A stretch of DNA of 64,000 nt. Origin: Morococcus cerebrosus (lineage in GTDB: Bacteria > Pseudomonadota > Gammaproteobacteria > Burkholderiales > Neisseriaceae). The notes below the pieces were generated by a model, which worked only from the letters and a program-made list of their open reading frames with translations, made no database searches and had not been told where the DNA came from. The position numbers and the translations under genes were made by a program. Numbering within the stretch: position 1 is the first letter of the stretch; each line of letters begins with the position of its first letter. The stretch lies in assembly GCF_022749515.1 (NCBI RefSeq), contig NZ_CP094242.1, positions 992,001 through 1,056,000 of the forward strand, written 5' to 3'. Shown here piece after piece: positions 3,363-33,157 of this stretch.

Positions 3363-4385
3363 TCAGCCGATCAACTGCTTCAACACTTCCGCTTTGGCTT
3401 TATCGTAATCCTCTTGAGCAATCAAACCGCCATCCAACAGAGATTTGAGTTTCGCCAATTTTGCCTGCGGGTCTTCGGAGGTCGTCTGAATGCTTTGCGC
3501 GGGTTGGGCTGCCGGTTGCGCCGCGGGCTGCATCATACCCGCCATCGCGCCAGCCATTGCCTGACCGACGCCTGCGCCGACACCTAAGCCTGCGCCGATT
3601 CCGGCAAGCCCGCCTTCGTTTTGCGCGGCAAGCGGGATAGCTTCGGCGGTTTGGTATTGGGTGTAGCGTCCCAAGTCGCCGATGACGCCCATGGAAATTT
3701 TCTTATCTAACGCTTCTTGGATGGCGGCAGGCAGAGTGATGCTTTCGACGGTGAAGTTTTCCAGCGTCAAGCCGAGTTTGGCAAATTCCGCGCCGAGCAA
3801 TTCACCGATTTTTTGCGACAGCAAAACTTGGTTTGCCGCCATGTCTAAAAACGGAATACCGGAGCTGCCGAACGCCGCCGCGAGTTGGGTTACGGCGATA
3901 TTGCGCAACTGGGCTTCCAACTCCGCGCCGCTGTATTCTGCCGCTACGCCGCTGACTTCTTTAAAGAATTTTGCCGGATCGCTGATGCGGTAGGCGTACA
4001 TGCCGAACGAGCGCAACTGCACCGCACCGAACTCGGCATCGCGTACGGTAACGGGTTGAGACGTACCCCATTTTCGCGCAAGTTGTTGTTTGGTATTGAA
4101 AAAGTAAACGTCAGATTTAAACGGGGATTCAAAGAGCTTGTCCCAGTTTTTCAGGTTGGTCAGCAGCGGCAGCGTTTGCGTGTTGAGTGTATAACGGCCC
4201 GGTCCGAACACGTCGGCGGTTACACCCTCGTCAACAAACATCGCCATCTGCGCCTCACGCACGGTCAGGCTCGCGCCGTTTTGGATTTCCTCGTCGGCAA
4301 TCGGGAAACGCCACATCAGCAGGCTGTCGTCGGGATTCGGCCATTGGATGACGTCGATAAACTGTTTCTTGATAAAGTTGAACAT
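3363..4385 (-). CDS. SPFH/Band-7 (virion core protein-like) with C-terminal SHOCT domain
   Basis: 340 aa. Residues about 20-240 match the SPFH-type virion core protein family (WRFPIADEEIQNGASLTV, GPGRYTLNTQTLPLLTNL, KKISMGVIGDLGRYTQYQ). A Gly/Ala-rich and Pro/Ala/Gln-rich linker covers about residues 255-305. The last roughly 33 residues (KLAKLKSLLDGGLI onward) are a SHOCT domain, a short helical oligomerisation module. Such proteins form membrane-associated assemblies, but there is no clear signal peptide or transmembrane segment here. DUF350 lies upstream (start 4870) and DUF4178 downstream on the same strand. Family function is not settled; a role in membrane stress is an inference from the neighbourhood. 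Confidence 0.85.
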   Translation of the reverse strand: MFNFIKKQFIDVIQWPNPDDSLLMWRFPIADEEIQNGASLTVREAQMAMFVDEGVTADVFGPGRYTLNTQTLPLLTNLKNWDKLFESPFKSDVYFFNTKQQLARKWGTSQPVTVRDAEFGAVQLRSFGMYAYRISDPAKFFKEVSGVAAEYSGAELEAQLRNIAVTQLAAAFGSSGIPFLDMAANQVLLSQKIGELLGAEFAKLGLTLENFTVESITLPAAIQEALDKKISMGVIGDLGRYTQYQTAEAIPLAAQNEGGLAGIGAGLGVGAGVGQAMAGAMAGMMQPAAQPAAQPAQSIQTTSEDPQAKLAKLKSLLDGGLIAQEDYDKAKAEVLKQLIG

Positions 4386-4471
4386 TGCGGTTCCTTATTT
4401 TGAAGAATGGAATAACACGGAGCGGGGCGGAAATGCGGCCAGCCGTATATTTTGCAAACTGTTTATATAAA

Positions 4472-4870
4472 TCAGGTCAAACAAGCGGCATTCAAGATAC
4501 CGATAGACACGGACACCGCGCCAAACAGCGCGCCGACGGCGACGTTGTTGCCGATAAGTTCTTCCGTTGCGCCTTTAATCATCATCGTGGCGGCGAAATA
4601 CACCAAAATTTGAATCACTGCCGCGGCGAGACCCCACAGGATAAAATCGATGAAACTGACACTATGGGCAATACTGGACGCGAGTGTCAGACAAAATCCG
4701 ACCAGTGCGCCGCCGAACGAGAAGGCGCAGGCAAGGTTGCCGTTTTTAATCAGCCGCAACTCTTCCGCAGGCGTAATACGCAGATACACCGCGCCGAAAA
4801 CGACAGTTATCGCTACACCTGCAAGCATATATTGCAGGTAAAGCAGGTATTGGGGCAGGGAAATACTCAC
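4472..4870 (-). CDS. DUF350 integral membrane protein (YjfL-like)
   Basis: 132 aa with about four hydrophobic segments (LLYLQYMLAGVAITVVFGAVYL; FSFGGALVGFCLTLASSIA; SFIDFILWGLAAAVIQILVYF; VAVGALFGAVSVSIGI), the DUF350 pattern. E. coli YjfL, in a cluster with a glutathionylspermidine-synthase homologue, belongs to the same family, and here the cluster contains SpeD. It is the first gene of the minus-strand cluster, 86 bp upstream of the SPFH gene. The start ATG at 4870 is preceded by a purine-rich GGAATCCC-like stretch. Function unknown. Confidence 0.85.
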   Translation of the reverse strand: MSISLPQYLLYLQYMLAGVAITVVFGAVYLRITPAEELRLIKNGNLACAFSFGGALVGFCLTLASSIAHSVSFIDFILWGLAAAVIQILVYFAATMMIKGATEELIGNNVAVGALFGAVSVSIGILNAACLT

Positions 4871-4928
4871 GATAGGGATTCCTTGTCAGATATTTTTGAT
4901 GCTTTTGATTATGCCATATTTCAATAGT

Positions 4929-4962
4929 AAAGGTCGTCTGAAAAGGGTTTCAGACGACTTTT
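4929..4962. terminator. Paired-DUS hairpin
   Basis: AAAGGTCGTCTGAAA and its near-complement with a short loop, upstream of the DUF350 gene and next to the Correia element. It probably isolates the cluster promoter from readthrough. Confidence 0.55.
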
Positions 4963-4989
4963 TACTGTTTTTTGCTTTGTTTTGGGATA

Positions 4990-5096
4990 TATAGTGGATT
5001 AAATTTAAATCAGGACAAGGAGATGAAGCCGCAGACATTACAAATAGTACGGCAAGGCGAGGCAACGCCGTACTGGTTTAAATTTAATCCACTATA
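4990..5096. repeat. Correia repeat element (short, 107 bp)
   Basis: It begins TATAGTGGATTAAATTTAAA and ends with the inverted copy finishing TCCACTATA, with the internal AATAGTACGGCAAGGCGAGG block typical of the internally deleted Correia form. The final TATA is shared with the terminal bases of the adjoining IS630-type element. Confidence 0.95.
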
Positions 5097-5097
5097 G

Positions 5098-5257
5098 TCA
5101 ATTAAAATCAAAATAGGATAGTAGTGCATCGTCAAATCGGGCGTAATCAGACAAAACGGTTCGCAGATACCGCTTAATATTCGCCCACATCTTCTCAATC
5201 GGGTTGAGCTCAGGTGAATAAGGTGCAAGAGGCAATACCTTATGTCTCAATTTTTCC
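5098..5257 (-). pseudogene. IS630-family transposase, C-terminal fragment
   Basis: It encodes the last roughly 53 residues of the DDE domain (LPLAPYSPELNPIEKMWANI, with the catalytic Glu in NPIEK). The frame is joined directly to the IS5 left end. It is the 3' part of the orfB whose 5' part lies at 6458-6803. It cannot make an active enzyme because the preceding segment is absent. Confidence 0.88.
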
Positions 5258-6457
5258 GAGACCTTTGCAAAATTCCCCAAAATCCCCTAAATTCCCACCA
5301 AGACATTTAGGGGATTTCCTATGAGCACCTTCTTCCAGCAAACCGCACAAGCCATGATCGCCAAACACATCGACCGCTTCCCATTATTGAAGTTGGATCA
5401 GGTGATTGATTGGCAACCGATCGAACAATACCTGAATCGTCAAAGAACCCGTTACCTTAGAGACCACCGCGGCCGTCCCGCCTATCCCCTGTTGTCCATG
5501 TTCAAAGCCGTCCTGCTCGGACAATGGCACAACCTCTCCGATCCCGAACTCGAATACAGCCTCATCACCCGCATCGATTTCAACCTGTTTTGCCGTTTTG
5601 ACGAATTGAGCATCCCTGATTACAGCACCTTATGCCGCTACCGTAACTGGCTGGCGCAAGACGACACCCTGTCCGAATTGCTCAAACTGATTAACCGACA
5701 ACTGACCGAAAAAAACCTAAAAGTAGAGAAAGCATCCGCCGCCGTCATTGATGCCACCATTATTCAGACTGCCGGCAGCAAACAGCGTCAGGCCATAGAA
5801 GTTGATGAAGAAGGACAAGTCAGCGGACAAACCACACCGAGTAAAGACAGCGATGCCCGCTGGACAAAGAAAAACGGCCTCTACAAACTCGGTTACAAAC
5901 AACATACCCGTACCGATGAGGAAGGCTATATCGAGAAACTACACATCACCCCCGCCAATGTCCATGAGTGTAACCATCTTTCCCCTTTGTTGGAGGGTAT
6001 TGCCGAAGGTACGACCGTTTATGCTGACAAAGGCTACGACAGCAAGGAAAACCGGCAACATCTGAAAGAGCATCAGTTGTTAGACGGCATTATGCGCAAA
6101 GCCCACCGCAACCGTCCGCTGACGGAAGCGCAAACCAAACGCAACCGATATTTGTCGAAGACCCGTTATGTGGTCGAACAAAGCTTCGGTACGCTGCACC
6201 GTAAATTCCGCTACGCCCGGGCAGCCTATTTTGGTCTGTGTAAAGTGAGTGCGCAAAGCCATCTGAAGGCGATGTGTTTGAACCTGTTGAAAGCGGCTAA
6301 CAGGCTAAGTGTGCCTGTTGCCGCCTAAAAGGCGGCCCGGATGCCTTATGTATAAGGTGTCCGGGGAGGATTAAGGGGGTATTTGGGTAAAATCAGGAGT
6401 GATTGGGGGCGAAAACAGCCGAAAACCTGTGTTTGGGTTTCGGCTGTCGGGGGAATT
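5258..6457 (+). mobile_element. IS5-family (IS1106-like) insertion sequence, right end truncated
   Basis: The left inverted repeat GAGACCTTTGCAAAATTCCC starts at 5258. The right side keeps only the inner part of the matching repeat (GGGGGAATT, ending about 6457) before IS630 sequence resumes. The outer roughly 12 bases, AAAGGTCTC side, are gone. The transposase gene is intact. No target duplication is visible, consistent with a deletion across the right junction. Confidence 0.8.
5321..6328 (+). CDS. IS5-family transposase (IS1106-like)
   Basis: 335 aa, full length. The N-terminal DUF772-type domain (YPLLSMFKAVLLGQWHNLSD) is followed by the DDE catalytic domain: Asp in VIDATII, Asp in VYADKGYDSK, and Glu in YVVEQSFGTLHRKFRYARA. 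No frameshift or stop is present, so it could be active, although the right terminal repeat of its element appears truncated. The C-terminal residues NRLSVPVAA match the neisserial IS1106-type transposases as I remember them. Confidence 0.93.
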   Translation: MSTFFQQTAQAMIAKHIDRFPLLKLDQVIDWQPIEQYLNRQRTRYLRDHRGRPAYPLLSMFKAVLLGQWHNLSDPELEYSLITRIDFNLFCRFDELSIPDYSTLCRYRNWLAQDDTLSELLKLINRQLTEKNLKVEKASAAVIDATIIQTAGSKQRQAIEVDEEGQVSGQTTPSKDSDARWTKKNGLYKLGYKQHTRTDEEGYIEKLHITPANVHECNHLSPLLEGIAEGTTVYADKGYDSKENRQHLKEHQLLDGIMRKAHRNRPLTEAQTKRNRYLSKTRYVVEQSFGTLHRKFRYARAAYFGLCKVSAQSHLKAMCLNLLKAANRLSVPVAA

Positions 6458-22182: not shown

Positions 22183-22190
22183 AGTTTGAT

Positions 22191-22231
22191 AAGCCCAAAG
22201 ATTTCAGATAACGTCAGATAACTTTGGGCTT
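22191..22231 (+). terminator. lolD terminator hairpin
   Basis: 10-bp stem AAGCCCAAAG / CTTTGGGCTT around a 21-base loop, 8 bp after the lolD stop. There is no uptake sequence in it. Confidence 0.6.
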
Positions 22232-22309
22232 CAAGGAAAAAACACCATACGCAAAAATCATATTTTAGATTTTTTTTGATTTTACCTCTATACTGAAGCT
22301 GCAATATTT

Positions 22310-22343
22310 TAAGGTCGTCTTAAAACTTTTTCAGACGACCTTT
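22310..22343 (-). terminator. Paired-DUS terminator (one arm degenerate) at the left end of the T4SS island
   Basis: AAGGTCGTCTTAAAA opposed to TTTCAGACGACCTTT, 20 bp beyond the stop of the TrbM-like gene. One arm has a G-to-T change in the uptake core. Confidence 0.7.
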
Positions 22344-22363
22344 AACACGGTATGAGTAGCTTA

Positions 22364-22651
22364 CTACTTAACCAACATATCTACGAACTCATCAAATCCC
22401 GTGCGGTCCTCCATGGGACATTTTTTAAGGAAGTTGCGGCGTGCATTTATCGTATCATGCCCATATTTGTACTTGATTGAGTGGAATTTTCTCAACGATG
22501 TCGCGCATTCGGGAGGTTTGGTAGGATTAGTCAGGCACATAATTGCCTCGCAGGCCAAGCGCTCATCTCCACCCATCAGTTGGGGTGTAACGGCAAGGGA
22601 AAGGGATGGGAGTAAAAATACGGGTAGGAATAGGGAGGGTAGTGTTTTCAT
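22364..22651 (-). CDS. TrbM/KikA-like secreted protein of the T4SS locus
   Basis: 95 aa. An N-terminal signal peptide (MKTLPSLFLPVFLLPSLSLA) is followed by the TrbM pattern GDERLACEAIMCLTNPTKPP, ECATSLRKFHSIK and FLKKCP, with four regularly spaced cysteines. TrbM/KikA proteins are periplasmic accessories of conjugative and related type IV systems. It is the last gene of the leftward half-operon, 25 bp after the DUF4189 gene. Confidence 0.78.
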   Translation of the reverse strand: MKTLPSLFLPVFLLPSLSLAVTPQLMGGDERLACEAIMCLTNPTKPPECATSLRKFHSIKYKYGHDTINARRNFLKKCPMEDRTGFDEFVDMLVK

Positions 22652-22676
22652 AGTAGCCTCGATAAAATATTTAGCA

Positions 22677-23192
22677 TTAAAGTTCCGGAGGTAATGAACA
22701 ACGTTCGGTTAGTACAATTTTACAATCTTTTGCACCAAGGGCAATGCAGCCATTCAGTGCTTCGGGTTCCGCTTCACCAACTTTACCGGCTCCAGAAACG
22801 AGAGGATATTTGTTTCCCATTTTACCTTGAGCAGCTGCCAAACAACCGTTCCTAGTCCATCGAAAAATTATGCAGTTGTTATCACCGCTTTTTTCCCTAC
22901 AAGCCTTTAAAGCTTTTCTTTTAGCTTCTGCTAATGAGTTTTGCTCTAAAGCACCTGTCAAGTAATTTTTTTTTGTATTGTATGACAACGCCCCATATTT
23001 TGAAGGGACTTGGATGACAATATGTTCAACACTGACCGGAGGAGTATAGTAACCTCCCCCACCTCCCCCACAGTTTGAATTGTAACCGTAGGAGCATAAT
23101 GCGGGATTATTCTGCAAGGCGCCTTGGGTCACATCGTTGGAATAGGCATTCATATTTGCCAATCCGAGTAAAACAAACATCAGTTTTTTCAT
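22677..23192 (-). CDS. Secreted DUF4189-domain protein of the T4SS locus
   Basis: 171 aa from ATG 23192, which follows GGAGATAC. A longer in-frame start at 23249 would overlap virB6 and lacks the signal peptide. Residues 1-19 are a Sec signal (MKKLMFVLLGLANMNAYS). A Gly-rich spacer follows, then a DUF4189 domain (about residues 65-165) with NTKKNYLTGALEQNSLAEAK, KACREKSGDNNC, and several cysteines. Function is unknown. Its place between virB6 and the TrbM-like gene suggests an envelope role in the same apparatus. Confidence 0.75.
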   Translation of the reverse strand: MKKLMFVLLGLANMNAYSNDVTQGALQNNPALCSYGYNSNCGGGGGGYYTPPVSVEHIVIQVPSKYGALSYNTKKNYLTGALEQNSLAEAKRKALKACREKSGDNNCIIFRWTRNGCLAAAQGKMGNKYPLVSGAGKVGEAEPEALNGCIALGAKDCKIVLTERCSLPPEL

Positions 23193-23202
23193 TGTATCTC
23201 CT

Positions 23203-24393
23203 TTACGCTTTGGTATTCCTATCTTGAGTGAGAGAATTCCTGACGCCATTTGGCTCTTCGGTACTCGGGGCTTTTACTACATCCCCCCGTCCGACAGAAG
23301 TTTTTACTCCTGTGCCTACCACCATATTATTATCTATATGACCTAAGGAATCGGGAAGTGTATTTGTCAGACGATTTTGAACATTACTTTCTTTATTGTA
23401 CGAAACCTCTTGTTTCGCCAAACTACTTCCGCCTATCTGCGGGGGCAGACCGTTCTGTGTAGGTGAGGAATTATTATTCCACTGACTGAACAGCGAGTAT
23501 CCGTTAAAGTTGCCCATTACCCCATTAAACCAAGCTCCTGCCATAGGAGGCACGGTAATCAATAGAGCGGAGAGCATCAAACCCAATCCCAACTGCTGTG
23601 TAACGGTTTTCATAATACCTCCAACTCCTCCGCCGAGCAAAGCAGATGTGATATTGGAAACTGCATCAGTTGTCGCAATATTAGTGACCAAATCCATGGA
23701 AATATCCGCCATTACACCAAGCATCACACCCGAAAAGATAGTCGAGAGTCCATAATATAGCCATTTTTGGAATAGCGGGGCAGTCTTTTTGAAGAGCAGG
23801 CAGAGAATAAAAATAGGAGCGAAACCGACGAACAGCGCCATAGCGATGCGAAACATAATCAGCATCGTACCAGCGACAATGGCGGGACCTGCCGTACCCA
23901 CACCAGCAAACCATCGTGCCTGAGTAACTTTACCTTCCAAATATTCGCTATCGGCTGTGTCGATACCATCTAACATGCCCATCATACTTTGTGTGGCAGT
24001 TAGGTTTCTGTCGATTTTACAGCCTAAAATTGCCTGTGTCTCTTGCGTCAAGCATTTGCTGCCAACATCGCTGTCACCAGTCATAATTTGAGAAATACCG
24101 TCAGATAATGTGTCAGTCAATGTACGTACACCAAATTTTCCGCCAGCAGCAACGCCAAGTGCCATAGCAACAATGAAGTAGGTCTTACCAAGGTTATATA
24201 TGAATCCCTTTATGCCATCCTGACTTCTTCCGGTAACGATCATATAGCCTTGTATCATGGCCCAAATTGTGAGGAGAGATACAATAACACTAAGAGAAAG
24301 AGCTAAATTTTGGGACAGCACCTGTTCGGTAAAAAAACTTATTCGCGCATAGATATAGTCACGGATACTCGAATAAAGGAGAAAGTCTATCAT
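23203..24393 (-). CDS. virB6: VirB6/TrbL-type T4SS inner-membrane channel protein
   Basis: 396 aa polytopic protein. An N-terminal periplasmic helix, then about five or six membrane segments (ALSLSVIVSLLTIWAMIQGY; TYFIVAMALGVAAGG; IVAGTMLIMFRIAMALFVGF; LGLGLMLSALLITVPPMAGAW), and a polar C-terminal tail of about 90 residues. This is the VirB6 layout. It forms part of the inner-membrane translocation channel. It lies between the VirB5-like and DUF4189 genes, the canonical B4-B5-B6 order on this strand. Confidence 0.85.
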   Translation of the reverse strand: MIDFLLYSSIRDYIYARISFFTEQVLSQNLALSLSVIVSLLTIWAMIQGYMIVTGRSQDGIKGFIYNLGKTYFIVAMALGVAAGGKFGVRTLTDTLSDGISQIMTGDSDVGSKCLTQETQAILGCKIDRNLTATQSMMGMLDGIDTADSEYLEGKVTQARWFAGVGTAGPAIVAGTMLIMFRIAMALFVGFAPIFILCLLFKKTAPLFQKWLYYGLSTIFSGVMLGVMADISMDLVTNIATTDAVSNITSALLGGGVGGIMKTVTQQLGLGLMLSALLITVPPMAGAWFNGVMGNFNGYSLFSQWNNNSSPTQNGLPPQIGGSSLAKQEVSYNKESNVQNRLTNTLPDSLGHIDNNMVVGTGVKTSVGRGDVVKAPSTEEPNGVRNSLTQDRNTKA

Positions 24394-24438
24394 AGGGGAA
24401 AGTCCTATCTTAAATAAATTTTATTCTATTTTAGTTAA

Positions 24439-25251
24439 TCAATGCTTATTGCTCATGAATTTATTATATATTTCATTTTGATCAATTCTTTTTTGTTTAG
24501 CTTTTTCACGATAATCAGCCGCATTTGATTGTAGGGCAGTTCCTGTGACAGCTTTAGTCAATGTATTAGTATTATTGCCCGATAGTTGATCTTTAGCTAT
24601 ATTAGCCCGTGCCCATTTATAATGTTCGAGCAATGCGTCAATGCGTTTAATTTCAGCTTCATGCTTACTTATCATATTTCCAAGTGCATTTAAATCAACA
24701 ACCGCCTGGCTTTCTGCAGTTGCCGCCATATTGCTATTATTACTAGCATTAGAATTTTGTTTACCGATAACATTTTTATTAATGTTATCAAAAGTTTCCA
24801 TAGTTTCTTTTTCTATTTTCTTTAGGATTTCGAATTTACGCTTTTCTAAATCAACTGTTCTATAGCAAAATCTTTGCGAAATTTTCGTAGTAATCCTGCC
24901 ACAACGTTGTCTACGCTTTTGAAACATTTCTTCAAACTCTTTTTCTTCCCGTTTATCAATCAGTTTTTTAATGCCAGGTATTTTTTCCATCTGACCCCGC
25001 ACCCACTGCTTCAGTTGAGTCTCCCAGTTTGCTAGTTGAGTAACCCAATTCGCTAAAGTCGTGGCACGGTCGATTGCATCTGCAGCCCAGTTGGCTGCGT
25101 CTTGTGCTATTTTTGCACCATCAATTACAGGTAATACGTAAGCATTCGCAGCAGGCATTGAAGATGCCATTATAGTAGCTAGTGAGATAGCTGCAATCAA
25201 TTGGCGTATTTTGCCTTTAATTTGCTTTTTCTTCGTTATTTGTGTTTGCAT
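24439..25251 (-). CDS. VirB5/TrbJ-like T4SS protein
   Basis: 270 aa. A long basic N-terminus and a signal peptide (LIAAISLATIMASSMPAANA) precede a mostly helical mature protein. It starts with paired segments (LANWVTQLANWETQLKQW) like those in VirB5/TrbJ proteins, which sit at the pilus tip. Two cysteines (CGRITTKISQRFC) could form a disulfide. Assignment rests on weak similarity plus position between virB4 and virB6. It starts 73 bp after virB4, with a paired-DUS hairpin in the gap. Confidence 0.65.
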   Translation of the reverse strand: MQTQITKKKQIKGKIRQLIAAISLATIMASSMPAANAYVLPVIDGAKIAQDAANWAADAIDRATTLANWVTQLANWETQLKQWVRGQMEKIPGIKKLIDKREEKEFEEMFQKRRQRCGRITTKISQRFCYRTVDLEKRKFEILKKIEKETMETFDNINKNVIGKQNSNASNNSNMAATAESQAVVDLNALGNMISKHEAEIKRIDALLEHYKWARANIAKDQLSGNNTNTLTKAVTGTALQSNAADYREKAKQKRIDQNEIYNKFMSNKH

Positions 25252-25291
25252 ATGTTGAATTCCGTTTTTTTGTCAGGGAAACTTTTTTAAG

Positions 25292-25321
25292 AAGGTCGTC
25301 TGAAAAACCTCAGACGACCTT
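25292..25321 (-). terminator. Paired-DUS hairpin between virB4 and virB5-like genes
   Basis: AAGGTCGTCTGA and complement with a six-base loop, 4 bp beyond the virB4 stop. It probably attenuates readthrough, so virB5/B6 may need their own promoter or partial readthrough. Confidence 0.75.
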
Positions 25322-25324
25322 TCA

Positions 25325-27775
25325 TCAGTCCTCATTTCTCATTGCACTAGTGACGTTTTTTTTTCCTGAACCTTTACGTTCAGAGTAAAATCGATCAAGC
25401 CACATTTGTGGCATCACTTGATCGACAGTAATGTTATTTGCAGCTGCCGTTTCTTTAACAATTCGATCCATAATATCGATATTGTCTGTGCTGGCAGAAA
25501 TGACTGCTAATTCGTCATCCATACCTCGAAGATTCAGTTGACATACTGCTGAAGCATGCCCCTGTTTAACAAGGAAACACCTACTCCGCTCATCAAGGCT
25601 TTTGACGACTTGAAATTCTGATTCAGTAAGTTTTAGTCCATCGATATAATCATGCCGATCGGCATTTGGATTGGGAAGCAGAATCATGGTAGCAGTTTGT
25701 TCTATTAATGCAGCAGAAATGTCACTTTTAAGTGCATCTTCAGGTGATTGTGTCGCAAAAATACCTAACCCATTTTGCTTACGGATAGTTTTCTGTTTGT
25801 TTTTAGCAAACTCTTTTAAACCACCTTCCCCATCAAGGATCTTCCAAAACTCGTCCATTACATAGATAAAACGACGCCCATCAATTAACTCCTCCATACG
25901 ATGGATAAGGTAACCTATAACTGGATCACGAACTAAGGCATTTTCGATTATATCTGTGTAATCGAAACCTATAATGTTTGCACCTACAAAATCAATCTTG
26001 TCTACAGGATTGTCAAATACCCAACCAAGGCTATTGCCATGAGTCCATTTTCGGATATTAGCGTAGAGCGAGTCATCACCAGTATTGGGAAGGGATTTTT
26101 GAAAGTTGGAAAGACTACGCAGTGAGAGAGGAGTATCAAGCATGGCACGGACAGCACGCAGGATATCGTCATCTTCTGAAGCAGAGTAGTGAGCTTTCCC
26201 GCCAAGTTGTTTCATCAGTTTGCAGAGAAACTGGACGTTCGCCTCAGTATTTTCGCATTGAAATGGATTGAAACCTGTCGGTTGTCCACTTTCTAATGCC
26301 ATATATGTACCACCACAAGCGCGAACAAATATTTCAGCACCACGGTCTTTATCAAAAAAGAAAACAGTCGGTTTAGGTTCATACTTTTGAACCTGACTTA
26401 AGAGGAAGTTAATCAATGCAGTTTTACCAGTACCGGACTTACCGATAACCATGGTATTGGCAATTGCTTTTTCTCCTTCGGAATTTTCCCCTTCATGTGT
26501 AGCATGAAAATTAAAGTAGTAAGGTTGTCCATTGGTCGTTTGAAGGACGGTAACACACTGCCCCCATGGGTTATAATCACGTTTACCGGTAGCAAAGTTG
26601 TGTAATGGGGAAAGTCCGAGGAAATTCAATGAGGATAAATTAGCGATACGGGTGCGATATTTCCAATTAGCCGGTAGTTGTGCATAGTATGCTGAACACA
26701 CTGCCAAATCTTCCTTAGTCGTAACAAAGCCTGCATTGGAAAGCTCTGCACGGGCAGCAGCAATATTTTGAGAAAGCTGCTCTTGAGAATCAGCATAAAC
26801 TGCCAAACTGAAGTGGTATCCACCTAATACAAAATTTCCAGAAGCGAGCTGATCCATCGCATGGTCCAGTTCGGCAATTTGTGTAAAAGATTTGTCACCT
26901 GAAGAAATCATCATGCCACGAGTACGTTCGAGGGTTTTCATTGCATCGTAACGACTCATGGGGCTGAAGCTATGTGTGACAACGTATTCCATATCTAAAT
27001 ATTTCAGACCATTTAATACACCAGGAAAAGTACCATCAGGATACTCTTTTAGATTAAGAATTGCACCATAGTAGTTCTTATCTTCAGGTGTTCGTATAAT
27101 GTAATCTCCTGTTTTTGAAGAGAATAGGTGACGACTTAATGGAAGGTAATTATATATAGGTGCAGAGAGAACAGGCACAGGCTCATTAATTCTGTTAAGA
27201 ATATAACCGAACAATTCTAAGGTTTCAGAGAATACTGCTCCATTTTTTCCCTCATACATACCAAGGCGATAGGGAAGGTAGTCCTTAAGAACAGCTTCAA
27301 GATTAGTTGCTAATTCATTAAGCTTTGATATAGCTTGCTCCTGTTCAGCCTTGAGTCTATCTATATTACCAGACTTATCAGCTAATTTTTTGCCATCAAC
27401 AACAGGGCGATAGATTAGTGTAAGGTAAAGCTCGTTATTCATGAGCTTTTCTTGAGATAGGCGTTGAAAATAGCAATCAGAAAGCTTTTGATTAAACGAT
27501 TCATCAAATTTTGGTTTGAGAGCAATTCCGCGACGACGACGGATATCGTGTATCCAAAAAGAGATATTGACATAGTCAGGAGCCCTGAGGGACTGAAGAA
27601 GACGATTGAAAGTGTTGTGCTTATGCTCTAACTCCCACTCTTCACGACCGACAAATGGAAGTCCAACAAGATGCCATGTTGTTAGGTAATCTCCCCCCGT
27701 AGTTTTAATAACTGTGGGCGAGACATGTGTAGAAAGTGATATGAATTGACTGATAGATGCGTCAGGAGTAAACAT
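25325..27775 (-). CDS. virB4: VirB4 T4SS ATPase
   Basis: 816 aa, full family length. Walker A is GKSGTGKTAL (445-454), Walker B FIYVMDEFW (637-645), followed by FATQSPEDAL. The N-terminal CagE/TrbE/VirB domain (residues about 170-400) is present. There is no N-terminal membrane segment, so VirB3 is not fused to it. It powers pilus assembly and substrate transfer. An A9 tract (coding strand) lies near the 3' end. It is the first gene of the leftward half-operon, starting 58 bp from the divergent VirB7-like gene. Confidence 0.93.
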   Translation of the reverse strand: MFTPDASISQFISLSTHVSPTVIKTTGGDYLTTWHLVGLPFVGREEWELEHKHNTFNRLLQSLRAPDYVNISFWIHDIRRRRGIALKPKFDESFNQKLSDCYFQRLSQEKLMNNELYLTLIYRPVVDGKKLADKSGNIDRLKAEQEQAISKLNELATNLEAVLKDYLPYRLGMYEGKNGAVFSETLELFGYILNRINEPVPVLSAPIYNYLPLSRHLFSSKTGDYIIRTPEDKNYYGAILNLKEYPDGTFPGVLNGLKYLDMEYVVTHSFSPMSRYDAMKTLERTRGMMISSGDKSFTQIAELDHAMDQLASGNFVLGGYHFSLAVYADSQEQLSQNIAAARAELSNAGFVTTKEDLAVCSAYYAQLPANWKYRTRIANLSSLNFLGLSPLHNFATGKRDYNPWGQCVTVLQTTNGQPYYFNFHATHEGENSEGEKAIANTMVIGKSGTGKTALINFLLSQVQKYEPKPTVFFFDKDRGAEIFVRACGGTYMALESGQPTGFNPFQCENTEANVQFLCKLMKQLGGKAHYSASEDDDILRAVRAMLDTPLSLRSLSNFQKSLPNTGDDSLYANIRKWTHGNSLGWVFDNPVDKIDFVGANIIGFDYTDIIENALVRDPVIGYLIHRMEELIDGRRFIYVMDEFWKILDGEGGLKEFAKNKQKTIRKQNGLGIFATQSPEDALKSDISAALIEQTATMILLPNPNADRHDYIDGLKLTESEFQVVKSLDERSRCFLVKQGHASAVCQLNLRGMDDELAVISASTDNIDIMDRIVKETAAANNITVDQVMPQMWLDRFYSERKGSGKKNVTSAMRNED

Positions 27776-27833
27776 TTTATTCGTAAGCTTATTTAGATTT
27801 AGAATATTTATTTAGAATAAATACAAGCTCCAA
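27776..27833. promoter_or_regulatory. Divergent promoter region between virB4 and virB7-like gene
   Basis: 58 bp, very AT-rich. It contains a perfect 7-bp inverted repeat ATTTATT-tag-AATAAAT at 27806-27822 and AT-rich -10-like hexamers on both strands. The space is too short for two independent standard promoters, so promoters must overlap each other or reach into the coding starts. The palindrome is a candidate operator. Confidence 0.5.
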
Positions 27834-28319
27834 ATGCATACCTATATACTTGTGAGGAGCTTGATTTATTCTATCTATTTTGTTTTAGGTGGATGCCGAT
27901 ATTCGTTAGGTGAAAAGCACCATACATCAGGAAATTCTTCGCGGTTTCGTACCTTGGTACGAAACTTAAAACGTAAACCTAGAAGACGAAAAATCATATC
28001 ATCACGTTTTGTCGAGATCCCTCTGATAAAACTTCATTCATATGAAGTAACCCAGTTAGATTCTACCGTAAAAGGTTTATTAGAGCGATGGGGAGAGGAA
28101 GCTAGGATGTCGGTTATATATGACCATCCAATTGATTTTACACTATATAAAAAAGTTAAAAGTATACATGCAACTGAATTGCGAGTGGCCTTAAATGAGC
28201 TGACACAACTTTACTCAGATAAGAATATGGTTTTCTATATTCAGGATAATGTCATTATGGCCCATGGAAAGATGGAAGAGGGTGAAGGGAGTAAGTATAT
28301 ATCTAATAAAAAAAAATAA
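27834..28319 (+). CDS. VirB7-like lipoprotein with TcpQ/N0-like domain
   Basis: 161 aa. The N-terminus is hydrophobic and ends in a lipobox-like VLGGC (Cys21). A basic linker (about residues 36-57) is followed by a domain at 76-146 (LDSTVKGLLERWGEEARMSV, then YIQDNVIMAHG). This resembles TcpQ/secretin-N0 folds, as fused to VirB7 lipoproteins in some T4SS outer-membrane complexes. Position just before virB8 is right for VirB7. The start is uncertain: ATG 27834 has a weak ribosome-binding site. It ends in an A9 tract. Role inferred. Confidence 0.55.
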   Translation: MHTYILVRSLIYSIYFVLGGCRYSLGEKHHTSGNSSRFRTLVRNLKRKPRRRKIISSRFVEIPLIKLHSYEVTQLDSTVKGLLERWGEEARMSVIYDHPIDFTLYKKVKSIHATELRVALNELTQLYSDKNMVFYIQDNVIMAHGKMEEGEGSKYISNKKK

Positions 28320-28375
28320 TAAATTGAAAAAGTAAGTCAAGTGATAATTTTATTTGTAATTTTGTTTGGAATGTT

Positions 28376-29257
28376 ATGTTTAACAAAAAAAAATATATTG
28401 AAGATGGAAGTATTCAAAAAACTCTGAAAAAATCTTTAGATTTTGAAAATACATTAGTTGATATTAGAAGGAAGAGTGAAAAAAGGGCATGGATAATTGC
28501 TGGAATTTCCACCTTCTCCTCATTGTGCCTGCTAGGGGGGCTATTCTATGTACTTCCATTAAAAGAGAAGGAGCCTTATTTAGTAATGGCAGACATTTAC
28601 ACAGGACAATCTACTGTTGCAAAGTTGTCAGGTAACTGGAATAGTATGGCAATTACTCAGAATGAAGCAGTAAATAAAAGCAATATTTCGCATTTTATTA
28701 TCGCTAGAGAATCTTTTGATAGTCAAATCATTTATGATAATGACTGGGCAACTGTCTATTCCATGTCAGTGTCTAATGTATCTGATGCCTATCGCAATTT
28801 CATGAATAAAAGCAATCCAAATAGTCCCTTTAATATATATGGCTCTTCTCAGTCTATACGTGTGAAAATCCTGAGTATTGTTTTGAATGATAATGGTAAA
28901 GTTGATGGTCGTAACCCAAGTGCTACCGTCCGTTTTCAGCGTTTTCTCTTGAATAAAGGAACAGGCATTTCTCAGTTCATTGACAGCAATGTTGCAACAC
29001 TAACTTATACTTATAATAATAATCTAAAAATGGATGAAAAATATCGGTTAAAAAATCCACTTGGCTTCCAGGTTTTATCTTATAGAGTTGATCCTGATTC
29101 TAGTGCAATACCTGATCAAGAGTTCGTAAATAATCCACCTACATCTACTTTAGTAACCCCTGATTCTAATACACAGACAGAGCCTATTAATTCTAATGGC
29201 AACGAGCAAAAAAATGCTGTTCAGGATACTTCTGTTCCGATTTCTACTGCTAAATAG
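28376..29257 (+). CDS. virB8: VirB8 T4SS inner-membrane assembly factor
   Basis: 293 aa. Short cytoplasmic N-terminus, one membrane segment (AWIIAGISTFSSLCLLGGLF, about 39-58), then the periplasmic VirB8 NTF2-like domain (KEPYLVMADIYTGQST; ESFDSQIIYDNDWATVYSMS; YRLKNPLGFQVLSYRVD). A Ser/Thr/Asn-rich C-terminal tail of about 45 residues extends beyond the usual domain. An A9 tract covers codons 4-6, a possible slippage site. Low GC. Confidence 0.9.
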   Translation: MFNKKKYIEDGSIQKTLKKSLDFENTLVDIRRKSEKRAWIIAGISTFSSLCLLGGLFYVLPLKEKEPYLVMADIYTGQSTVAKLSGNWNSMAITQNEAVNKSNISHFIIARESFDSQIIYDNDWATVYSMSVSNVSDAYRNFMNKSNPNSPFNIYGSSQSIRVKILSIVLNDNGKVDGRNPSATVRFQRFLLNKGTGISQFIDSNVATLTYTYNNNLKMDEKYRLKNPLGFQVLSYRVDPDSSAIPDQEFVNNPPTSTLVTPDSNTQTEPINSNGNEQKNAVQDTSVPISTAK

Positions 29258-29269
29258 GAAAAGTGAATA

Positions 29270-30007
29270 ATGTTCAGAAAATTTAAACATTACTTAGTTT
29301 TAACTATGATTTCAACATATATAATGCATAGTCAATCATATGCAACAACAATTCAGGAGTATTTATTTGAAGAAAATAAAACATATCCTGTTTTTACAAC
29401 ATTGGGATTGGTTACTCAAATAGAATTAGACCCAAGAGAAGTTGTCAAGGATTTTGGGTCGGGGCTGTCCAGTAGTTGGGATTTGGCTCGAAGAGAGAAT
29501 GTTTTTTACTTAAGGCCTAAGACCGAAGCTGCCGATACAAATTTAATTGTTCGTACTCAAGCTCATCAATACATTTTTGAATTAAAAGTTATTAAGGGTA
29601 ATTGGAAAAAATTATCTGAAGCAAAAGAAAAGGGCGTCAATTACCAAATTAAATTTAAATATCCTGATTCTATTGATTTTGGTTTAAAGTCAAAATCTTT
29701 GGCTGGCTACAGTCTGAGATTTGATCCTTCAAGGAACTATCATACATCTTATGATGTTGCGGCAAATAAAAAATCTCAGTGGCTTATACCTTTAAAAGTC
29801 TATGATGATGGGAGATTTACATATGTATATTTGAACAAAGGAAAATTTACAGGGGATTTCCCTACAATCTATGGTAGAAAAAGCGAAGATTCTCAAGAGT
29901 TTGTTTTAAATAATAATGTAGAAGGTAATATTATTATTGTTCACGGTATCTATCCTATTTTAGTTCTTCGACATGGTGATAATGTTGTTGGGTTAAGGAG
30001 AAATTGA
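29270..30007 (+). CDS. virB9: VirB9 T4SS outer-membrane core protein
   Basis: 245 aa. A signal peptide ends about SQSYA, and the mature protein has the VirB9/CagX pattern (PVFTTLGLVTQIELD; ENVFYLRPKTEAADTNLIV; VYDDGRFTYVYLNKGKF; NVEGNIIIVHGIYPILVLRH). It builds the outer-membrane core complex with VirB7 and VirB10. It starts 12 bp after virB8, and virB10 follows after 2 bp. Confidence 0.9.
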   Translation: MFRKFKHYLVLTMISTYIMHSQSYATTIQEYLFEENKTYPVFTTLGLVTQIELDPREVVKDFGSGLSSSWDLARRENVFYLRPKTEAADTNLIVRTQAHQYIFELKVIKGNWKKLSEAKEKGVNYQIKFKYPDSIDFGLKSKSLAGYSLRFDPSRNYHTSYDVAANKKSQWLIPLKVYDDGRFTYVYLNKGKFTGDFPTIYGRKSEDSQEFVLNNNVEGNIIIVHGIYPILVLRHGDNVVGLRRN

Positions 30008-30009
30008 TA

Positions 30010-31227
30010 ATGTCAGAAAATCATAATGACAAAATTATGCAACAAAATAGTCAAAATAATAATCACGATTATAATGTTGATAATGTACAAAACTTATATA
30101 AGAGCCAATATGACCAGCAACAGCAACTAGCAAGCCTAGAGGAAAATGCTCCCAAATTGAATAGTCCTGTGGACATGGCTGTAAATAAAAAAGCTATCAC
30201 GTTTATTATTTTAGCAGGATTGGGAATAACTGCCTTAGGCATATTTGTTTATCATCAGCTCAGTGACCAAGGAGAAGTTCAGCAACCTGTAAGAGCAGAA
30301 GTTGTGAGTGTTCCTGAATTACCTCCTCCTGATCCATATCAATTTGATGAAACTAAACAGGAAGTTATTTCTGTAACAGATGAACAAAAATCGGATCAAG
30401 ACTCTAAATCTAGCCATAACTCCAACATGCTAGATTTAACAGCTAATGATAAAGCTATTACTCCAACCACATCCCAGCCTCCTGTACAGATTACACAACA
30501 CACACCTGCGTCAGCTAATATATCCTCTCAACTACAAGGAGATGGGATTGTGAATGAGAATAAAGAACCTTTCATACAGGGAGGGGGAGAATTAGAAAAT
30601 ACTACTCCTGTTCAAATTAGAGCGGCTCGTTATATGCATAATAAGGATAAATTATTAGTTCAAGGAACTTATCTACGTTGTATTTTGGAAACAAAGATCG
30701 TGTCAGAGGTTTCAGGTTTTACCTCTTGTATCATTACAGAACCAATTTATTCTTCTAGCGGTAAATATCTCTTATTGCCAAAAGGATCTAAAGTTCTGGG
30801 ACAATATGGTTCTAGCAATCCAACAGGGGGACGTCTAGGTGTTGTTTGGGATAGGATTATCACACCAGATGGTGTTGATGTAACTCTCAAATCTCCAGGT
30901 GTTGACAATTTGGGAGCAGCAGGTCATGTGGGTAAATTTAAGTCACATTGGCCTTCACGTTTGGGGTCTGCTTTATTGATTAGTATGATTTCTGATACTT
31001 TTCAATATGCCGCATCAGAATATGGGCCAGAGGGAAAAACTGTAACAACCTCAACATCAACAGTAAAAAATCCTTATGAAAGTGAAAGTGCTGAGACCTT
31101 AAAACGCTTAGCGATTCAACAATTAGATCGTAATAATGCTAAGCCTAATACTGTAACTATTAACCAGGGTAGTCTGATTAATATTTACGCTGCTCAGGAT
31201 ATTGACTTCAGCTCTGTCATCCAATAA
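30010..31227 (+). CDS. virB10: VirB10 T4SS core channel protein
   Basis: 405 aa from ATG 30010; a TTG two codons upstream overlaps virB9 and is less likely. It has a polar Asn/Gln-rich cytoplasmic N-terminus, one membrane segment (AITFIILAGLGITALGIFVY), and a proline-rich stretch (PELPPPDPYQFDE). The C-terminal VirB10 beta-barrel domain has LVQGTYLRCILETKIVSEVS, SGKYLLLPKGSKVLGQYG and GRLGVVWDRIITPDG. It spans both membranes and gates the channel. Confidence 0.92.
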   Translation: MSENHNDKIMQQNSQNNNHDYNVDNVQNLYKSQYDQQQQLASLEENAPKLNSPVDMAVNKKAITFIILAGLGITALGIFVYHQLSDQGEVQQPVRAEVVSVPELPPPDPYQFDETKQEVISVTDEQKSDQDSKSSHNSNMLDLTANDKAITPTTSQPPVQITQHTPASANISSQLQGDGIVNENKEPFIQGGGELENTTPVQIRAARYMHNKDKLLVQGTYLRCILETKIVSEVSGFTSCIITEPIYSSSGKYLLLPKGSKVLGQYGSSNPTGGRLGVVWDRIITPDGVDVTLKSPGVDNLGAAGHVGKFKSHWPSRLGSALLISMISDTFQYAASEYGPEGKTVTTSTSTVKNPYESESAETLKRLAIQQLDRNNAKPNTVTINQGSLINIYAAQDIDFSSVIQ

Positions 31228-31304
31228 TTTAGCAATCAGTCTATCTAAGAATTTAGGAAGACTGATTTAAATTTCTTTTTATAATGAAAATTTTATAATT
31301 ATAT

Positions 31305-32324
31305 ATGGAAGAATTAAGTTCAAGTATTTCAACTGATTTTTTGAATTATCAGTATGAAATTTTAGGTATTTCACCGTTTTTGAAGGATCCTGATGTAACT
31401 GAGATTTGTATCAATAAACCAGGTGAGGTATTTTTAGAAACATCCCAAGGATGGAAAAAAGTTGAAGTTGAAAGTTTAAATTTTGATAGGGCACGGCAAT
31501 TTTGTACAGCTGTAGTGAATGAGAGCAATACTGGACAAAGAATTACAGAATCTGAGCCCATGGTATCATTAACCTTTCCTACGGGACAAAGGGCTCAATT
31601 TGTTATTCCACCTGCTTGTGATGCAGGAAAGGTTTCTATTACAGTTCGACTACCTTCGAAACATACTAAAAGTCTTAGTCAGTATAGTTCAGATGGTTTT
31701 TTTAATCAAATTGTTGATTTTAATAACCAACTTTCTGATCATGATAAAGAGCTATTAGATTTGAAAAATGGTAAATGCTACGAAATGTTTTTCAAGAAAG
31801 CAGTTGAGTATAAAAAAAATATTGTCGTATCTGGCGCTACGGGAAGTGGTAAGACTACTTTTATGAAAGCATTAGTAAACCATATTCCTTTGCATGAACG
31901 GTTGATTAGCATTGAAGATGCGAGAGAACTTTTTATTCCTCACCAGAACGTTGTTCATTTACTTTATTCTAAGGGAGGACAGGGTAGTGCAAATGTATCT
32001 GCTAAAAGTTGCATGGAGTCTTGTTTAAGGATGAAGCCAGATAGAATTATTCTTGCTGAGCTTAGGGGTGATGAATCATTTTATTTCATTCGTAATTGCG
32101 CGTCAGGGCATCCTGGTTCTATTACTAGTTGCCATGCAGGGAGTACAATACAAACTTGGGATCAACTGGCTTTGATGGTCAAGGCATCCCAAGAAGGAAG
32201 CGGTTTAGAGTTTGATGTAATTATGAAGCTATTAAAACAAACTATTGATATAATCGTACATATAAAAGCGTATTCAGGAAGTCGCTATATCACTGGAATT
32301 GATTTTAACCCATTAAAAAACTAA
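31305..32324 (+). CDS. virB11: VirB11 T4SS hexameric ATPase
   Basis: 339 aa. Walker A SGATGSGKTT (176-185), Asp box SIEDARELF, His-box-like region (GSITSCHAGS) and Walker B RIILAELRGDE. It has the usual N-terminal and RecA-like C-terminal halves. It switches the machine between pilus assembly and transfer. It starts 77 bp after virB10 and is the last gene of the rightward half-operon. No VirD4 coupling gene follows. Confidence 0.93.
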   Translation: MEELSSSISTDFLNYQYEILGISPFLKDPDVTEICINKPGEVFLETSQGWKKVEVESLNFDRARQFCTAVVNESNTGQRITESEPMVSLTFPTGQRAQFVIPPACDAGKVSITVRLPSKHTKSLSQYSSDGFFNQIVDFNNQLSDHDKELLDLKNGKCYEMFFKKAVEYKKNIVVSGATGSGKTTFMKALVNHIPLHERLISIEDARELFIPHQNVVHLLYSKGGQGSANVSAKSCMESCLRMKPDRIILAELRGDESFYFIRNCASGHPGSITSCHAGSTIQTWDQLALMVKASQEGSGLEFDVIMKLLKQTIDIIVHIKAYSGSRYITGIDFNPLKN

Positions 32325-32410
32325 GTTTATTCGCATAATGTATATTATGTAAAATTATTTCGGTTGCAACCTTATTTTTATGTTTTATAAATATTTTCTT
32401 ACTTACAGTT

Positions 32411-32445
32411 AAAGTCGTTTGAAAATTCAAATTTCAGACGACTTT
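32411..32445 (+). terminator. Terminator at the right end of the T4SS island
   Basis: AAAGTCGTTTGAAA opposed to TTTCAGACGACTTT. These are degenerate uptake sequences forming a hairpin about 87 bp after virB11. Confidence 0.65.
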
Positions 32446-32592
32446 CTGTTTTTAGAGTTGTTTTTTATCGCGTTTTACTAATCTGTTCTTGATAATCCTA
32501 GGCCGAAAGCGCAAACAGCACTGTTAATTTCTAAAATAAACTATCACACTAGAAAAATCATTTTTCGAGAGATTTTTCGCTATAAATAAAAT

Positions 32593-32629
32593 TTTCTGTA
32601 TTGACAGAAATAAAAGACAAAAATAAAAT
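32593..32629 (+). promoter_or_regulatory. Promoter with overlapping palindrome for the GbsR-type gene
   Basis: A -35 TTGACA (32601-32606), exactly 17 bp, then -10 TAAAAT (32624-32629). The inverted repeat TTTCTGT-attg-ACAGAAA (32593-32610) covers the -35 box, so a bound repressor would block it. The ATG is at 32639, which implies a leader of only a few bases or none. A second TTGACAGAAAT lies at 33709-33719 before the DoxX-like gene. Confidence 0.65.
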
Positions 32630-32638
32630 ACCCTCACT

Positions 32639-33157
32639 ATGAAACTGAATCCGACTACTGAAAAATTCATCCTCCACTGGGGCGAAATGGGCACCAAATG
32701 GGGCGTCAACCGTACCGTTGCGCAAATCCACGCCCTGCTCTATATCTTAGGCAGACCGATGAATGCCGAAGAAATTACCGAAACGCTCGGCGTAGCGCGC
32801 TCCAACGTCAGCAACAGCATCAAAGAGCTGCAAAACTTGAGACTGGTGCATACCGTGCATATTCTGGGCGACAGGCGCGATCATTTTGAAACTTCAGACG
32901 ACGTCTGGACTTTGTTCCGCACCATCGCAGAAATGCGTATGCAACGTGAAATCGAACCGACGCGGCAATTTTTGCAAAGCCTGATCGACAGCCCTGAATT
33001 TAGTCAGGAAAACGAAACCGCCAAGCAGCGAATCCGACAAACCCATGATTTCATCAGTACGCTGACCACGTGGGCAAATGAAATGTTGAAGCTTTCCACC
33101 TCAACCATGGTGAAAATTTTAAAAATAGGCGCCGGAATACAAAAATTTTTCCGATGA
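32639..33157 (+). CDS. GbsR/MarR-family transcriptional regulator
   Basis: 172 aa. N-terminal [20 protein letters not shown] is the GbsR-family signature. A winged helix-turn-helix follows ([31 protein letters not shown]), then a helical C-terminus. It probably represses its own promoter, whose -35 is overlapped by a palindrome, and possibly the DoxX/DUF2269/SDR genes downstream. An in-frame DUS encodes TSDD. Effector unknown; GbsR in Bacillus senses choline, but there is no sign of that here. Confidence 0.85.

Follow-up and report, generated by a model that had tools for sequence, protein, structure and literature searches.

Ten reading frames at positions 22364–32324 of the stretch of Morococcus cerebrosus DNA that we analyzed (the window; 64,000 nucleotides, NZ_CP094242.1, positions 992,001 to 1,056,000) include virB4, virB6, and virB8 to virB11 of a type IV secretion system (T4SS). 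They are bounded by lolD on one side and a GbsR-like gene on the other, the flanking genes being what we take to be lolCD and gbsR. An earlier note on this DNA had read them as an intact, domesticated T4SS made of two divergent half-operons, without VirB1 to VirB3 or VirD4. This raises the question of whether the locus is a compact secretion system sufficient in itself or the remainder of a larger one. We argue, with a probability of about 0.82, that it is a Neisseria Xanthomonadales-like T4SS (X-T4SS) that was disarmed by one deletion of ~1.55 kb and no longer secretes, with effector and immunity-like genes remaining.

The virB3–virB7 junction

In the related genomes G024, G013, and G037, virB11, virD4, virB10, virB9, virB8, and virB7 run one way, and virB1, virB2, virB3, and virB4, then virB6, run the opposite way; the order in a fourth, G029, agrees up to the end of its contig, inside virD4. 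Positions 27702–28009 of the window align to the start of virB4 and the end of virB3 of G024 (12083–11812 of its locus L099), and positions 28014–28276 align to the inner part of its virB7 (L099 10259–9997). The 1,552 bases that lie between these segments in G024 (L099 10260–11811) are missing here, at a junction placed at 28013–28014 with a precision of ~4 bp, and they carry both virB1 and virB2, the start of virB3 (~55 codons), the intergenic region from which the two gene sets diverge, and the 5' part of virB7. Given the alignments to both sides of the missing bases, the open reading frame at 27834–28319 on the forward strand (161 aa) is a fusion: residues 1–59 are the end of virB3 read backwards plus the virB3-virB4 spacer, and residues 60–161 are the N0 part of VirB7. 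Its former label, VirB7-like, conceals a deletion, and from the alignments we infer a single event.

The C-terminal part of the fusion is identical to G024 VirB7 at 65 of 102 residues, and the N-terminal part at 9 of 43. Residues 60–142 match VirB7 of Xanthomonas citri (2l4w and 6gyb; E about 1e-11), covering residues 45–127 of 6gyb (E = 1.7e-11) with no N-terminal match, and residues 68–141 match 3ov5 (E = 9e-10); the profile search gave this frame only a weak match to TcpQ (E = 0.063). Antisense to the fusion, at 27884–28015 on the reverse strand, the last ~45 codons of virB3 persist, identical to G024 at 98 of 126 nucleotides and 34 of 43 amino acids. The 58-bp gap at 27776–27833 that separates the two divergent gene sets is present, as the earlier note had said, but it corresponds to the virB3-virB4 space of the relatives, and we rejected it as the original divergent promoter region.

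Could the deletion have arisen during assembly or culture, with wild strains intact? Our evidence comes from one assembled genome, and to that extent this point tells against us. The recorded completeness of that genome is nonetheless 100% and its contamination 0.09, and no long repeat able to collapse was seen in the junction alignments, so we consider an artifact of this kind very improbable.

Family and missing subunits

From a scan of genome contigs for VirB4 relatives we kept the best 80 of 291 loci, one of which (L002) is a contig of G029 and another of which (L007) supplied three of the queries. VirB4 of the window (25325–27775, reverse strand; TIGR00929, E = 3e-221) is 72–78% identical to 79 of the 80, nearly all Xanthomonadales by title (72–76% for Xanthomonadales X-T4SS loci), and 87% identical to the remaining one, a Neisseria metagenome-assembled genome (MAG). 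VirB11 (31305–32324, forward strand; TIGR02788, E = 2.7e-129) is 71–77% identical in nine of ten loci among the matches listed, one of the nine being a Hydromonas MAG. Plasmid VirB4s among the 5,000 records listed all fell below 60%, the best of them reaching 43%. A VirB4 phylogeny, one of the checks that the earlier note had proposed, placed the protein inside the X-type group (26 of the 30 rows of the tree; the deeper branching of that group is not resolved), together with four sequences of the same genus (support 100/100); the Hydromonas MAG joins next (99/99), and then two more same-genus sequences (94/100). The VirB4s of four other genomes of the genus (G032, G007, G028, and G027; L095, L096, L097, and L098) lie far off in the tree, at 31–32% identity, and belong to a different T4SS.

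These comparisons identify the locus as the bulk of an X-T4SS, a type of system by which toxins are injected into competing bacteria. The earlier suggestion of a T4SS in Neisseria is upheld; the system is unlike those of plasmids, and its relatives are protein exporters. The system itself is not new: its hosts according to Sgro et al. (2019; PMC6536674) include Neisseria mucosa, N. flavescens, and N. dentiae, among others, and the Neisseria operon is described there as divided into segments; the deletion scar is the new point. Like the X-T4SSs of N. mucosa C102, N. flavescens SK114, and others in that source, ours is chromosomal (on a 2.57-Mb single contig), has a segmented operon, and is accompanied by effectors with a C-terminal domain of XVIPCD type. 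The N0 part of VirB7 is present too, but in a protein whose N-terminal part is replaced by antisense virB3. VirB8 (28376–29257, forward strand; PF04335, E = 3.5e-44) has the distinguishing length and C-terminal extension, features outside the four criteria, with 293 aa against the published 290–370; the extension, 53 aa counted from residue 241, contains 26% alanine, glutamine, glycine, and proline, under both values published for Neisseria (32–39% in two species; PMC6536674).

All twelve class A subunits are demanded by the criteria as that source gives them, whereas VirB1 and VirB2 are not found here and VirB3 and VirB7 are truncated. Queries from G024 gave no match to VirB1 or VirB2 in the whole single-contig genome at E values up to 10, and the VirB3 query matched only by residues 56–100 of 101 (E = 2.4e-20), at the remnant described above. 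The searches bear out the reported absence of VirB1 to VirB3 except for the tail of VirB3. In X. citri and Stenotrophomonas maltophilia, a single operon opens with virB7 and carries virB1, virB2, and virB3, deleted in our locus, between virB11 and virB4. The VirB2 query matched six of 46 genomes of the genus, which are all six of the other carriers of an X-type VirB4. Across the 80 kept loci, tblastn against the 3.5 kb before virB4 on the same strand (E ≤ 1e-3) found VirB2 and VirB3 in 80 each and VirB1 in 79, the sole exception (L067) having just 1.3 kb before virB4. A VirB/D-like T4SS of N. subflava KU1003-02 is also a commensal Neisseria VirB system unlike that of the gonococcal genetic island, and 11 of its 12 subunits are reported (PMC7643975).

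A plasmid, or another T4SS outside this assembly, might provide the lost subunits in trans. A plasmid could be missing from an assembly that is one contig, and four other genomes of the genus carry a distant VirB4. Set against this, VirB1 to VirB3 were not found elsewhere in the contig, PF02534 yields one VirD4 there, the best plasmid VirB4 among the 5,000 records listed is only 43% identical, and virB7 is damaged too. We give supply in trans a still slimmer chance than an artifact.

Genes kept elsewhere and the predicted loss of secretion

VirD4, which had been reported absent, is encoded in single copy (PF02534) at genome positions 2490972–2492666, as a protein of 565 aa and X-T4SS type. On the contig it is separated from the virB genes by ~1.47 Mb, a distance that shrinks to ~1.1 Mb in the opposite direction should the contig be circular; it adjoins a gene that we presume to be murA-like. 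The idea that missing parts are elsewhere or dispensable is right for VirD4 but is not supported for VirB1 to VirB3, which were not found elsewhere in the contig. As the main part of an X-T4SS, the locus is not a compact system sufficient in itself.

After VirD4 come two paralogs of 289 and 285 aa (62% identical), which, judged by position only, are probable immunity proteins and may protect the cell, and then a protein of 449 aa. That immunity may be retained as a guard against self-intoxication is an idea put forward in PMC10933484. The paralogs (L001:278–505 and L086:14884–16897) flank a 64-residue fragment of an effector N-terminus, an arrangement suggestive of a second effector module that disappeared and left its partner gene behind. 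The last ~140 residues of the 449-aa protein are 73–74% identical to those of a 366-aa frame near genome position 3640, the fronts of the two being different, and there is ~31–35% identity to proteins that G024, G013, and G037 encode at their X-T4SS loci. Its C-terminal domain, modeled from a three-sequence alignment with a predicted local distance difference test (pLDDT) score of about 80, has as its best matches 7r6s and the X. citri XVIPCD 7mu9; 7r6s is TfcB, a T4SS effector of S. maltophilia (PMC11253643). The domain is thus modeled as a secretion signal of XVIPCD type, and we treat the model as stronger evidence than the PF20410 scores, which were 16.8 bits, and 13.7 bits in another search, below the family cut-off of 24.9. 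A homologous 149-aa protein of G024 likewise matches PF20410 below the cut-off (E = 0.0012).

Two further arrangements were seen around these genes. In G024 (L099:2725–4415), an RTX/metallopeptidase-like frame of 408 aa and the XVIPCD-like frame of 149 aa are separate neighbors. The 366-aa XVIPCD-like frame is preceded, at a distance of 2 bp, by one of 235 aa that is read in a different frame (L083:1420–3230, genome ~3640–5450); the pair could be two genes or one frameshifted effector.

The original weapon would have been contact dependent, passing XVIPCD-tagged toxins via VirD4 into neighboring bacteria; what remains elsewhere in the genome is VirD4, a pair of proteins whose C-termini are of XVIPCD type, and the two probable immunity paralogs. 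One deletion of ~1.55 kb would have taken both virB1 and virB2, ~55 codons from the start of virB3, the region between the divergent gene sets, and the beginning of virB7, and with the last its signal peptide, lipobox, and VirB9-binding segment. VirB2 is the pilin (PMC6536674), and VirB3 wraps the N-terminal domain of VirB4 in the R388 structure (PMC9259494). In X. citri, VirB7 residues 27–41 bind VirB9, Cys22 sits within the lipobox, and the stability of VirB9 and VirB10 depends on VirB7 (PMC3093366); the match of the fusion begins at residue 45, past both. The remainder would be unable to build a pilus, the VirB3-VirB4 part in the inner membrane, or a normal VirB7-VirB9-VirB10 core in the outer membrane, and so the system should not fire. 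We predict a non-secreting state, and the earlier picture of intact genes in a domesticated T4SS is not supported: the deletion beheaded virB7 besides removing virB1, virB2, and the start of virB3, and disabling lesions in several genes, which the earlier note would have looked for in related strains, occur in this genome itself.

Several further points weigh against a disarmed system. The reading frames of the remaining virB genes are complete and close in length to those of relatives, and their nonsynonymous divergence (dN) from G029 is like that of intact G024 (our genome/G024: VirB4, 0.102/0.094; VirB8, 0.256/0.230; VirB9, 0.234/0.274; VirB10, 0.394/0.353; VirB6, 0.410/0.382; VirD4, 0.141/0.155), being larger in ours, slightly, in four of the six genes. 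Together these observations imply that the deletion is recent or that the genes are still under selection. The fusion opens with a lipobox pattern (C21), as did 141 of 20,000 base shuffles. As to effectors, matches to PF20410 in our own genome score 16.8 and 14.5 bits, both under the family cut-off, matches at the same loose limit also occur in five of 14 control genomes, one profile search found no PF20410 match in the 366-aa protein, and the 449-aa model is poor outside the last ~115 residues (mean pLDDT, 48).

Might a reduced, pilus-less T4SS still work, with VirB1 to VirB3 dispensable and the fusion serving as a VirB7 that has acquired a new lipoprotein signal? Remaining genes that are full length and not clearly accelerated, and a fusion that stays open for 161 codons behind a lipobox-like start, speak for it. 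Yet VirB2 and VirB3 accompany every one of the 80 related loci, the VirB9-binding segment known from X. citri is gone, and none of the first seven residues in the fusion is lysine or arginine, contrary to what we take to be the rule. The VirB3 tail is also slightly more diverged, with 34 of 43 residues identical to G029 against 38 of 43 for G024, too few to conclude from. We rate this slighter again than supply in trans. That antisense virB3 should have supplied a lipoprotein signal to the N0 domain, creating a new working VirB7 in a pilus-less T4SS that exports XVIPCD effectors without VirB1 to VirB3, is barely credible.

A recent deletion is the simplest reading, although the remaining genes may still be under selection, and most likely the killing system was disarmed recently.

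The rest of the locus, its site, and its meaning

Frames and profiles bear out the gene order first described. Leftward (reverse strand) run genes for a TrbM-like protein of 95 aa (22364–22651; PF07424, E = 1.9e-22), also found in G024, G013, and G037; a DUF4189 protein of 190 aa (22677–23249; PF13827, E = 1.5e-15), likewise found at relatives' X-T4SS loci; virB6 (23203–24393; PF04610, E = 6.9e-23); a virB5-like gene (24439–25251; 270 aa); and virB4. Rightward, virB8 is followed by virB9 (29270–30007; PF03524, E = 8.4e-42), virB10 (30004–31227; PF03743, E = 1e-44), and virB11. The VirB5-like frame has no Pfam or NCBIfam match at family cut-off, and we named it for its place, its size, and a pair of cysteines (117/129); it is 51% identical to the G024 protein at the same place, and the VirB5 query also matches G029 (24%), with no match in G013 or G037.

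The locus is AT-rich relative to most of its flanks, as had been noted. The repeat AGGTCGTCTGAA, which we take to be a dialect of the DNA uptake sequence, is sparse at 22183–32638, with two of the window's 56 copies. The GbsR-like gene (32639–33157) encodes a protein 98% identical to that of G024 (L100:4307–4825), and in G024, G013, and G037 (98% identity) the gene also lies near the X-T4SS, at the virB6/DUF4189 end and not at the virB11 end. No lolD ortholog was found in the compared stretches of those three genomes, and our LolD is 71–80% identical to LolD of 29 other loci. The X-T4SS probably occupies a related site in the opposite orientation, and the region looks mosaic, given the contrast between the GbsR-like gene (98%) and LolD (71–80%). 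The X-T4SS locus of G024 has at its end (L100:1–3024) a tandem array of repeated VirB6 C-terminal pieces and genes of the DUF4189 and TrbM-like kinds.

The gaps in the gene set speak for the loss of a weapon of a described type and not for an unknown minimal secretion system. This is perhaps a natural case of a commensal dropping its X-T4SS yet keeping toxin and probable immunity genes, and such cases can test the fate of immunity once the weapon has gone, and what makes killing systems appear and disappear among commensals.
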